From positions 1 through 64,000 of the forward strand of contig JAJCZZ010000090.1 in the NCBI GenBank assembly GCA_029262115.1: a stretch of DNA of 64,000 nt. Direction: 5' to 3'. This stretch comes from Gemmatimonadota bacterium (lineage in GTDB: Bacteria; Gemmatimonadota; Gemmatimonadetes; Longimicrobiales; Gaopeijiaceae). This document shows, one piece after another, positions 4,640 through 8,534 of this stretch. The notes beneath the pieces are model-generated. The model did not search any database. It was not told the origin of the DNA and saw only the letters and a list, made by a program, of their open reading frames with translations. The position numbers were made by a program, and so were the translations under genes. Position 1 is the first letter of the stretch. Every line of letters starts with the position of its first letter.

Positions 4640-7276
4640 TCACTCCCCCCTGAGTGAAGCCACGGGATCCGCCGTGGCGGACCGGTAAGCTGGGATCACA
4701 ATGGCCGCTGCCGCGACCAGGCCCACGCCGAGCGTCGTAACGGCATAAACGGTCGGGTCGGCCGGGGACACTCCGAAAAGGAAGCCGGCCAGGAGGTGTC
4801 CGAGCTGCCAGGCGGCGAGGAGTCCGAGCGCGACGCCGGCCGCGACCGCGGCGGCCTCGGCGGCTACTGTGCGGGAAAAGACTCTCGCACGTGTGGCACC
4901 CAACGCCAGCCGGATTCCGGTTTCGCGGCGCGCCGACCCGAGGGTGTGGCTCACAACGCCGTAGATTCCGGCGGCGCCCAGCAGCAGCGCCATGAAGCCG
5001 AGTACGGCGAACATGATGCTTCGGAAGCGGGCTTCCTCCAGGAGGTCCCCGCGCAGATCGAGCAAGCGACGCGGCGGATGGAGCGGGATGGCGGGATCCG
5101 CTTCCGCGACGGCGGTGTGAAGGGCCTCCATCGCGGGTGCGGACGGAGCGTCATCAGAGAGACGGACGATGAACCAGCGCGTCCGCACCGTCCACGGGAA
5201 CGCGTCGTCCATATCCGCGAGGTAGAGGCGGGGGCCGGGGGCCTCCGAGAGCGACCCCGCCGGACTGTTCCGGACGACCCCGACCACGCGCAGCGTCGGG
5301 CCGCCGGTGAAGTTGAGGCTGCGGTCGAGCGCGTCGCCGTCGAAGAGGTCGGCAAGCGCCTCGTTCACCACGACGACCTTCTCGGACCCATCGCCGAAAT
5401 CGGAGCGATCCAGCGAGCGACCCGAAACGACCGGGGCGTCCAGCACGGAGAAGTAGTCCGGCGTGACTTCCTCGATCTCGGTCGACGGCAGTTGACCTTC
5501 GGAGGGGTCTCGCCCCTCCACGACGACGAAATTCCATCCCGCGGACGAAAAAGGCGGGCTGGTGCTGGCCGCCACGGCGGTCACGCCCGGCACGCCCTTC
5601 ATTCTCGCCAGCACCTGATCCGTGAATCCTCGTACGGATTCCGAGTCCCCATACGTCGAGCTGTTGAGGTTGATTCGTGCCACCATCCGGTTCTCCATGG
5701 CCCGGGCCACATCGATGGATTGGAGTTCGGAGAGCGAGCGGACCACCAGGCCCGCCCCCACCGCCAGGGTCACGACCAGGGCGGTTTCGACCAGCACGAG
5801 CGATCGGCCCAGGGCCTTCCACTTCGGGTCCGGCCCTCTCGAACGGAGGAGGCTGGCGGCGTGTTGGACATGGGGGTGAAGGCGGGAGGTGAGAACGGCT
5901 ACGCCGAGACTCAGCGCGATGGCGGCGAGGACAGTGGCGACGGTCTCGGACACACCGAGACGGGCATAGGCGGCCCCGGGAATCCACGTGGGATTGGCGG
6001 TCCGCACGACCTCGACCAGCCAAACCGCCACACCCAGCGCGGCCATGGCAGCCAAGGCGGCAACGATCGCGTTCTGGGCGAGAAGTCGCCGTAGGGCGAT
6101 GGACGGCGGAGCACCCAGCGCGGTGTGAACCACGAACTCCCGGCTGCGAGCCTGGAGCCGGGCGAGGGTCAACGCGACGAGGTTCGCGGCCCCCAGCAGC
6201 AGCAACAGGGCTGTCGCGGCGCCGAGGGCGGCCATCGCCTGGACGCCGTCGCCTTGTAGAAGGTCGGGCAGGGGATCGACCTCCATGTGCCAGCTCGGGT
6301 CGGTTCGCCACTGGTCCAGCTCACGGCGCAGCTCTTCCATCGTCTGGGAGGCCGCCGCGAGAACGTCGGCGCGATCCACCGCCGGGCGGGCCTTGGCGAC
6401 GACCTGGTAACGGAGGCCGGGATCCAGGGCCAGGTCAGCCGTGCGCTGAACCGGGATCCAGAGGTCGGCCCCGTCCGCCTGGCGGCGCTGCGGCAGTCGG
6501 GCGCCCTCCTCCAGCACGCCCGCCACCGTGTAGCCCAGTCCGTTCAACTCGACCGTGGCTCCGATCGCGTCCGGGCTGCTTCCGAAGCTCCGTGTCCAGA
6601 AGGCGTGGGAGATCAGCGCGGTGCGTTCCCGGCCGGGGTCCTCGTCCTCAATAACCAGTTGCCTGCCAGCGACGACCCCGTACCCGAGAAGCGGGACCAG
6701 GCCGGAGGTAACCCGGGCGACGCCGACCACCGTGGGATCCGCGTCGGGGCGGCTGAGGTTCTGGTCGATCGGTCCGCTCCACGCCTCCACGGCCTGGTAG
6801 ACCTCGGCGCGCTCCTGGAGCCGCCGAAGCGTCGGGTCGGCCACGGCCCCCACCTGACCGTTGCTCTCGCGAATCACGAACAGACGGTCCGCGTCCGGAA
6901 ACGGGACGACGTCCGTGCGCATCGCCTCCGCCATGGAGAAGACGACCGTCGCGAACACCATTCCCGTCGCGAGGGTCCCGACCGCGAGGGCCGACCAAAC
7001 CGGCGTCCGCACGAGCGCACGGGTCTCGTACCTGAACGCGTGCACCCAACCCGCACCGCTGGAGCGATCCCGACTTCCCATCATCCCTCTCCCTTGCACC
7101 CCAAGGGTGCCCATGGTCGATAGCATCGTACGTAGGTACCAGCGGCGGGCGCGGCCCTCTCCGAACTCGGCCACCCGGCCGGGCCACTCCTCGTCAAGGT
7201 CGCCGAGCACGATCTCGGCGCCTTCACCGAGAAAGAGGCGGAGGAGGCCGTCGAGACTCGTGGGCCGACGGATCAC
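4640..7276 (-). CDS. ADOP-type duplicated ABC permease (FtsX/MacB fold)
   Basis: 878 aa. The N-terminal 60 residues (SLDGLLRLFLGEGAEIVLGD, then RARRWYLRTMLS) are the short domain typical of the acidobacterial ADOP permease family. It is followed by two MacB_PCD/FtsX halves: a first TM (SALAVGTLATGMVFATVVFS), a periplasmic domain, a three-TM block around ALGAATALLLLLGAANLVAL, a fourth helix, then a second TM-periplasmic-TM unit ending VASLRGE. Other domain members act with a separate MacB-like ATPase; none is encoded nearby. It is translationally coupled to the PadR gene (4-bp ATGA overlap, 7273-7276). Substrate is unknown; efflux or lipoprotein-type export is a family-level guess. Confidence 0.87.
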   Translation of the reverse strand: MIRRPTSLDGLLRLFLGEGAEIVLGDLDEEWPGRVAEFGEGRARRWYLRTMLSTMGTLGVQGRGMMGSRDRSSGAGWVHAFRYETRALVRTPVWSALAVGTLATGMVFATVVFSMAEAMRTDVVPFPDADRLFVIRESNGQVGAVADPTLRRLQERAEVYQAVEAWSGPIDQNLSRPDADPTVVGVARVTSGLVPLLGYGVVAGRQLVIEDEDPGRERTALISHAFWTRSFGSSPDAIGATVELNGLGYTVAGVLEEGARLPQRRQADGADLWIPVQRTADLALDPGLRYQVVAKARPAVDRADVLAAASQTMEELRRELDQWRTDPSWHMEVDPLPDLLQGDGVQAMAALGAATALLLLLGAANLVALTLARLQARSREFVVHTALGAPPSIALRRLLAQNAIVAALAAMAALGVAVWLVEVVRTANPTWIPGAAYARLGVSETVATVLAAIALSLGVAVLTSRLHPHVQHAASLLRSRGPDPKWKALGRSLVLVETALVVTLAVGAGLVVRSLSELQSIDVARAMENRMVARINLNSSTYGDSESVRGFTDQVLARMKGVPGVTAVAASTSPPFSSAGWNFVVVEGRDPSEGQLPSTEIEEVTPDYFSVLDAPVVSGRSLDRSDFGDGSEKVVVVNEALADLFDGDALDRSLNFTGGPTLRVVGVVRNSPAGSLSEAPGPRLYLADMDDAFPWTVRTRWFIVRLSDDAPSAPAMEALHTAVAEADPAIPLHPPRRLLDLRGDLLEEARFRSIMFAVLGFMALLLGAAGIYGVVSHTLGSARRETGIRLALGATRARVFSRTVAAEAAAVAAGVALGLLAAWQLGHLLAGFLFGVSPADPTVYAVTTLGVGLVAAAAIVIPAYRSATADPVASLRGE

Positions 7277-7617
7277 ACGCCCTGCCTCCCTGGATCCGCG
7301 GTCAAGGCATCCCCGAGGCCATGCGACATGGCTCGGATATGCCGATGCGCCTCCGTCAGCGCCTCGGTCCCGGCCGCCAACAGCGTATAGAGCCGAATCG
7401 GTCGGCCGCTTCTCGAGTCCCCACCCTCGGCCAGGACGGATTCGATGAGGCCGCGGTCCTCCATCCGACCCAGGGCGGTGTAGACGGCTCCGGGCGACAG
7501 GTCCCGTCCGGACCGCACGCGCACTTCCTGGCGAAGTGCCAACCCCGGCGCGTCGTCGCCCAGCGCCATGAGCGCGTAGAGCAACGTGACCTCGAGTTCG
7601 CCCAGTGCTCGCCCCAC
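7273..7617 (-). CDS. PadR-family transcriptional regulator
   Basis: 114 aa from a GTG at 7617. GELEVTLLYALMAL, SPGAVYTALGRMEDRGLI and RLYTLLAAGTEAL form the PadR winged helix. The GTG at 7617 has GGGAGG 6 bp upstream (7624-7629) and begins right at the conserved fold. The frame stays open to 7806 but that extension would only translate the 20-bp repeat array, so I reject it. It overlaps the permease start by 4 bp, forming a two-gene operon in which PadR presumably represses its own transcription. Confidence 0.82.
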   Translation of the reverse strand: MGRALGELEVTLLYALMALGDDAPGLALRQEVRVRSGRDLSPGAVYTALGRMEDRGLIESVLAEGGDSRSGRPIRLYTLLAAGTEALTEAHRHIRAMSHGLGDALTADPGRQGV

Positions 7618-7641
7618 CACCACCTCCCGTTCTTGGAAATC

Positions 7642-7798
7642 GTCCGCCCTACCGGTCCAACCGTCCTCCGATCGATGTACGGTCTTCCCGACCGGCGTAC
7701 TGTCCTCCGATCGGCGTAGCTGTCCTCCAATCGGCGTAGCTGTCGTCTCGATCGAGCTGACTTCCCAATCGTTGGACCGTCCTCCCGATCGCAGAGAC
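7642..7798 (-). repeat. array of about eight 20-bp repeats in the PadR leader
   Basis: Units begin near 7642, 7663, 7682, 7702, 7722, 7742, 7761 and 7779, spacing 18-21 bp. The best two copies (plus strand) are GTCCTCCGATCGGCGTAGCT at 7702-7721 and the same with one change at 7722-7741; outer copies are degenerate. On the transcribed strand each unit carries a GGAGGA or GGGAAG core that looks like a Shine-Dalgarno sequence. The array lies between the predicted promoter (7805-7833) and the PadR start. Confidence 0.75.
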
Positions 7799-7833
7799 AA
7801 CTTCACTGTAGTTGTAGTAGATCACGACGGCAA
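7797..7833 (-). promoter_or_regulatory. promoter and inverted repeat for the PadR-permease operon
   Basis: Minus strand: TTGCCG (7833-7828), 17-bp spacer, TACAGT (7810-7805). A 6-bp inverted repeat, ACAACT at 7797-7802 and AGTTGT at 7810-7815, straddles the -10 element and is a candidate PadR operator. Transcription would begin near 7798 and give a leader of roughly 180 nt. Confidence 0.5.
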
Positions 7834-7839
7834 GGGTTC

Positions 7840-8223
7840 TCAGGCGACCTCCTCCCAGAGTCGCAGCCCTGGGATGTCCGCAAAGTCCTCGCGGTTCAAC
7901 GTCCAGAGCGGGGCGCCCCAGGACATCGCGCTCGCGGCGATCGCGATGTCCATTTCGCGCCCCAGGAGGCTGATCGATCTGCCGGTAGAGCTTCGTGGCC
8001 AACGCCGCCGCCTCCGGCCCGAAGGGGATGGCTTCGCCGGCCGGCAGGAGGGCCTCCTAGGCGCGCAGTTCCTGATCGTTTCGAGGTCCCGGCCTCCATT
8101 CGTAGAGCACCAGGGCGGGGAGGATCAGCCGTTTGCCGGTCTCGAAGGCGCCTCGGAACTCCGCGCGAAGTCGACCTCCGGCTCCGAGCCCTCGACGAGC
8201 GCTGACGTGTCGACGACGATCAC
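7840..8223 (-). pseudogene. degenerate VapC-type PIN-domain toxin
   Basis: The three frames together spell a near-complete PIN toxin. It begins at a GTG (8223) overlapping the antitoxin stop: VIVVDTSALVEG, with the first catalytic Asp. A frameshift near 8190 moves to the frame reading RLILPALVLYEW. A TAG at 8057-8059 replaces a codon before EALLPAGEAIPFGPE. A second frameshift near 7960-7970 leads into REMDIAIAASAMSWGAPLW and then NREDFADIPGLRLWEEVA, ending at TGA 7840. Three independent lesions make a functional RNase very unlikely, although the four acidic residues of the PIN fold are still recognisable. Confidence 0.85.
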
Positions 8224-8534
8224 GCCGGGTCGCCCTCCCGAGGCTCTCCACGCATCTCGGGTCCGGTCGCCCGTCCCCCGAGTCGCCTTGTCCGGCTCAC
8301 TTCGGCAAGCTCGGCGTCTACTTCGGCACGAGGACGGTCGGGAATGTGCTCTACGACCTCGTCGAAGAGCGCCACCTTGGCGTTGCGCTCCGCGTCGTCC
8401 AACCGGCCAAGATGCTCACCGTAGAGATGGACCGCTTCACGGACGACCTGGCTCTTGGGGATGGAGAGCCGCTGCGATGCCCGCTCGATCTCCCGAGCCG
8501 ACGCCGCGTCCAAGGTGAAGGTCATCTTCTTCAT
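8220..8534 (-). CDS. ribbon-helix-helix antitoxin (VapB-like)
   Basis: 104 aa from ATG 8534. The N-terminus KKMTFTLDAASAREIERAS is a ribbon-helix-helix strand and helix, followed by LSIPKSQVVREAVHLYGEHL; the rest should bind and neutralise a toxin. ATG 8549 is an alternative start. Its TGA overlaps the toxin GTG (GTGA, 8220-8223), the usual coupling of vapBC operons. The antitoxin frame is intact while the partner toxin is ruined, so it may survive as an autoregulator or as an antidote to a related toxin elsewhere. The C-terminal 25 residues are charged and low in complexity. Confidence 0.75.
   Translation of the reverse strand: MKKMTFTLDAASAREIERASQRLSIPKSQVVREAVHLYGEHLGRLDDAERNAKVALFDEVVEHIPDRPRAEVDAELAEVSRTRRLGGRATGPEMRGEPREGDPA

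Follow-up and report, generated by a model that had tools for sequence, protein, structure and literature searches.

A decayed 20-bp tandem array in a probable PadR-permease operon leader of a Longimicrobiales genome

Does a tandem repeat that lies between a promoter and a regulator gene control that gene, or does it only add length to the leader? This question is raised by a 64,000-nucleotide stretch of DNA (here called the window) from a Longimicrobiales (Gemmatimonadota) MAG with a 5.45-Mb assembly in 110 contigs that is 95.7% complete. An array of ~20-bp units lies in what is probably the leader of an operon of padR and a permease gene, as a first-pass annotation had stated; the same annotation offered a multi-operator for PadR, a series of decoy Shine-Dalgarno (SD) sites, or a slippage-prone tract that tunes expression as explanations. 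Our analysis favors a different reading, in which the array is probably an old, decayed, locus-specific intergenic minisatellite that passively lengthens the padR leader, with a single operator-like site upstream of it. The locus comprises the following features.

7805-7833 (7833-7828 and 7810-7805), minus strand: putative promoter TTGCCG-N17-TACAGT, recognized from sequence, with 8 of 12 positions as in the sigma-70 consensus
7799-7813, minus strand: candidate PadR operator AACTACAGTGAAGTT, a near-palindrome over the putative -10 in which 12 of 15 positions equal the reverse complement
7639-7797, minus strand: tandem array of seven clear units and one weak unit (TRF, shuffles, unit alignment, identity matrix)
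7618-7638, minus strand: true RBS segment with the SD CGGGAGGUGG, -14.8 kcal/mol to the anti-SD
7273-7617, minus strand: PadR-family regulator of 114 amino acids (PF03551, E=1.5e-9; gene model start 7617)
4640-7276, minus strand: ADOP-like permease of 878 amino acids with MacB_PCD and FtsX, two stretches each (Pfam, ORF)

The padR start at 7617, a GTG codon, stands as first annotated, with the codon-score gene model and the Pfam PadR match in agreement, and the start of the permease gene overlaps the padR stop. The promoter had been called a good one; promoter-like sequence is indeed present, but it is weak and was not reported by a stricter consensus scan, and the transcription start is a presumed one. 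A frame is open from a GTG at 7806, but a coding extension of PadR was rejected: a period of 20 rotates the frame, and the GTG itself lies over the putative -10. No Rfam family was found over the leader (7600-7800), even at E<=1, and nothing relevant turned up in the literature on Gemmatimonadota PadR proteins or ADOP permeases. Upstream of the promoter lies a ribbon-helix-helix gene (8220-8534), directly followed by a remnant (7840-8226, minus strand) that reads, by eye, as a PIN-type (VapC) toxin gene broken by frameshifts and stops; it could alternatively be an assembly error.

The array itself is present where it had been annotated. It is the top-scoring tandem repeat that TRF reports within the window (7663-7755, period 39, corresponding to two units, score 105), and it is also reported at period 20 with scores of 71 and 90. 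Over 7617-7839, self-matching at lag 20 reaches 24.8, compared with a mean of 7.6 and a maximum of 13.6 among 1000 dinucleotide-preserving shuffles (lags 12-60). On the minus strand, its unit has the consensus TACGCCGATCGGAGGACAGC, which can also be written TACGCCGATCGGAGGACAG(C), and unit alignment gave the following copies.

7797-7777, minus strand: unit 1
7776-7756, minus strand: unit 2
7755-7739, minus strand: unit 3 (short, 17 nt)
7738-7719, minus strand: unit 4
7718-7700, minus strand: unit 5
7699-7680, minus strand: unit 6
7679-7660, minus strand: unit 7
7659-7639, minus strand: unit 8 (weak)

Of the roughly eight copies first described, seven are clear, with pairwise identities of 0.60-0.90 (random pairs 0.50, 95th percentile 0.65), but the eighth, with identities of 0.48-0.62 to the others, is at or near chance. 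The cores are spaced by 20, 17, 20, 20, 20, 19, and 20 bp. Adjacent copies are slightly closer to each other than distant ones (identity 0.71 versus 0.64); most copies are 60-80% alike, and 90% is reached by one adjacent pair only. Head-to-tail units longer than 10 bp that are repeated beyond chance (the shuffle maximum being far lower) agree with a bacterial minisatellite, and copies that are 60-90% alike and carry indels show its decay.

The array was not observed in the nearest relatives of this PadR, which come from Longimicrobiales MAGs. We compared the leaders of the two nearest relatives among the database genome contigs (L141 and L142, 50% and 48% identity) and of two paralogues (L074 and L065): none of the four contains the array of the window, and in L141 and L142 there is no tandem repeat upstream of padR. 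All four carry an exact ACTACAGTG upstream of padR. From this motif it is 25 bp (L141) and 62 bp (L142) to the PadR match, and 70 bp (L074), 94 bp (L065), and 241 bp (window) to the end of the compared region. The operator-to-gene distance is hence ~150 bp shorter in the four relatives than in the window, a difference that equals the size of the array. In blastn searches the array had no second match in its own genome or in 38 relatives and is therefore not a dispersed element, which rules out a dispersed repeat family; at the thresholds applied, neither the locus nor the permease was matched in the one genome of the same genus. An origin by multiplication of the gene's own RBS had some appeal, since the SD forms of the genome include CGGAGGAC, but the RBS segment, ~21 bp after the last unit core, is no more similar to the units than expected by chance (0.43-0.67). 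When 154 genomes of the order were searched for a CGGAGGAC tandem pattern, which does not match the window array exactly and thus tests for similar arrays only, matches were no more numerous than those of a reversed control.

Under the minisatellite reading, a padR leader segment of ~20 bp would have been multiplied in tandem, probably through replication slippage or unequal recombination, and the copies would later have decayed through point mutations and small indels. The array would put ~150 nt extra between the promoter and operator on one side and the RBS on the other. Its effect on expression would be at most passive or weak, exerted by the length or structure of the leader or by weak SD-like cores, and we infer that it has no strong function; the simplest effect is that it passively makes the leader longer. 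A counterpoint to this passive reading is that the GGAGGA core is retained in half of the units, which could reflect selection.

The likely PadR operator is the single near-palindrome at 7799-7813, a function that we infer from the relatives. A matrix was built from five sites from the four relatives, leaving out the window's own site. With this matrix, AACTACAGTGAAGTT at 7799-7813 has the best score in the leader, and one higher-scoring site was found in 144 kb; it is presumably the one upstream of the paralogue L074, which lies on the same contig and contributed to the matrix. Among 211 regions upstream of padR genes, three have the exact ACTACAGTG, namely that of the window and those of its two closest paralogues, versus one of 728 controls. 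When one mismatch was allowed, the excess over controls was not significant (7/211 versus 14/728, P=0.29), which is compatible with a motif confined to one PadR subgroup. PadR would most likely autoregulate from this near-palindrome, as its relatives appear to do. Two other padR upstream regions of interest were noted. Upstream of the padR of L068 (C31:25906), CTTCAGTGCAGTA ... TACTGCACTGAAG form a long inverted repeat with a sequence related to the candidate operator. Upstream of that of L120 (C92:10990), three direct TAGTCTACATTGT-like copies lie 36-86 bp before the end of the compared region; they look like a true multi-operator, in contrast to the array of the window.

The SD-like cores of the leader invite another explanation, namely that they hold 30S subunits without a nearby start codon and, as decoys or standby sites, lower or increase the translation of padR. 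We consider this unlikely. With the anti-SD assumed to be the usual bacterial sequence, four units bind it at -10.3 to -11.6 kcal/mol, and the true RBS follows the last core nearly in register. A GGAGGA-like core had been ascribed to every copy, however, and while SD-like cores are present, an intact GGAGGA is found in four of the eight units only. At -9 kcal/mol the array has four strong sites, and the corresponding shuffles have a mean of 1.6 and a maximum of 4 in 60; across shuffle settings the means are 1.6-2.2 and the maxima 4-5, which puts the array at about twice the shuffled number and near the expectation from composition. None of its sites is as strong as the true SD. Folding of the leader is of ordinary stability (z=-1.61), and other arrays upstream of padR genes are mostly C-rich and lack SD sequences. 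The decoy array of the first-pass annotation is not borne out by these results.

Distinctly unlikely, too, is an extended binding by PadR, in which the protein would occupy its main operator at 7799-7813 and then spread over low-affinity units in the leader. The analogy is with LmrR, a PadR-family repressor that reportedly binds its own promoter region extensively, although more weakly than the lmrCD operator (PMC4534193), and the palindrome CGATCG is found in several units. On the other hand, no unit resembles the common motif, the best 9-mer of the array having three mismatches to ACTACAGTG and the matrix score reaching at most -2, and the nearest relatives are devoid of the array. The copies had further been expected to lie on one face of the helix, which is not the case: for the spacings found here, R (the mean resultant length) is 0.27 at 10.5, 0.30 at 10.25, and 0.63 at 10.0 bp per turn. 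A multi-operator within the array is not supported by the same motif comparison, as the operator-like motif lies outside it.

How unusual such an array is can be judged from the rest of the genome. A 1.25-Mb sample, with gene models from a simple codon-score caller rather than a curated annotation, contained 223 tandem arrays, 67 of them intergenic (0.48/kb versus 0.14/kb in coding sequence). The intergenic arrays have unrelated units with periods of 3-128, and 15 of them outscore the array of the window. Upstream of padR genes, arrays are about threefold enriched in this genome: at a TRF score >=60 they were found for 15 of 131 padR genes versus 20 of 582 other genes (P=5e-4), where the control genes were required to have an upstream gap >=60 bp and all 131 padR genes were taken whatever their gap. 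Important to note here is that the 15 include the window, which was chosen for its array, and that they represent 14 regions because L013 and L125 share a single divergent region. The upstream gaps, capped at 250 bp, are similar (177 versus 175 bp), and when only the padR genes in the sampled contigs were counted, 5 of 40 had arrays (P=0.017). Another PadR-rich genome, G005, gave six of 30 padR genes versus three of 146 controls (P=9e-4). Pooled dinucleotide shuffles of the padR regions yielded 0.4 regions with arrays in 211, and the arrays are thus not accounted for by composition. Across ten further genomes, which had no controls of their own, none of 50 padR upstream regions had an array with a score >=60, and arrays as a general PadR feature were rejected on this ground. 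The enrichment is thus seen in two genomes, is mixed in kind, and is not general. The array units upstream of the different padR genes are mutually unrelated in sequence. Those of the L120 type are AT-rich repeats close to the start, which may be duplicated operators, and other arrays, that of L065 among them, are C-rich and precede the operator-like site. The padR of L055 has a far cleaner array just upstream (17 bp x 6.9, C31:21275-21391) and a second, unrelated one just downstream (42 bp x 3.2, C31:20697-20829).

The enrichment in this genome and G005 speaks against the passive reading, as something in padR leaders may favor or retain repeats. One proposal is that, in Longimicrobiales with many PadR-permease modules, padR leaders repeatedly gain locus-specific arrays that are kept since leader length or content sets the regulator level, so that duplicated modules would diverge in expression by repeat expansion; we regard this as improbable. 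The size of the PadR family varies enormously among the relatives, with 133 matches in this genome, 47 in G005, 35 in G020, 19 in G014, 11 in G007, and none in G010 and G021.

Very improbable, finally, is a variable-number tract in which changes in copy number tune expression by phase variation. Phase variation is known to arise from tandem repeats in bacterial promoters (reviewed in PMC3899988), and one adjacent pair of units here is 90% identical. Degenerate copies slip or recombine poorly, though, and a change in copy number would affect leader length only, not the promoter spacer or the reading frame. Since identities between copies mostly stay at 60-80%, present-day slippage should be low, and the slippage-prone tuning tract that had been suggested is not supported. 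Decoy SD sites, PadR spreading, and copy-number tuning are each without positive evidence. A CsrA-binding leader was rejected because a search for csrA came back empty (PF02599 had no match, at a genome completeness of 95.7% and with positive controls).

By itself the array is ordinary, and what surrounds it is more useful. The candidate operator motif of one Longimicrobiales PadR subgroup is directly testable with purified protein, and the excess of unrelated arrays upstream of padR in two PadR-rich genomes makes one ask whether repeat expansion causes duplicated regulator modules to diverge.

Several known systems can be set beside this locus. Like CsrA-binding leaders with their repeated GGA, the leader contains several GGA-containing units, but it belongs to a genome in which csrA was not found. 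As in the TAAA tract of Neisseria nadA, a case of phase-variable promoter repeats, tandem repeats lie between regulatory elements and the gene; the units of the window are long, degenerate, and downstream of the promoter, whereas those of the nadA type are short, perfect, and within it. Autoregulated PadR promoters of the LmrR/lmrCD type (PF03551) likewise have padR upstream of a transporter gene and one near-palindrome over the promoter, but the motif AACTACAGTGAAGTT of the window is deduced from relatives only, and an array of ~150 bp separates it from the gene. Bacterial intergenic minisatellites or VNTR loci (units >10 bp) share with the array head-to-tail noncoding copies, a locus-specific sequence, and unequal decay; compared with VNTR typing loci, the copies in the window are more degenerate than is typical.
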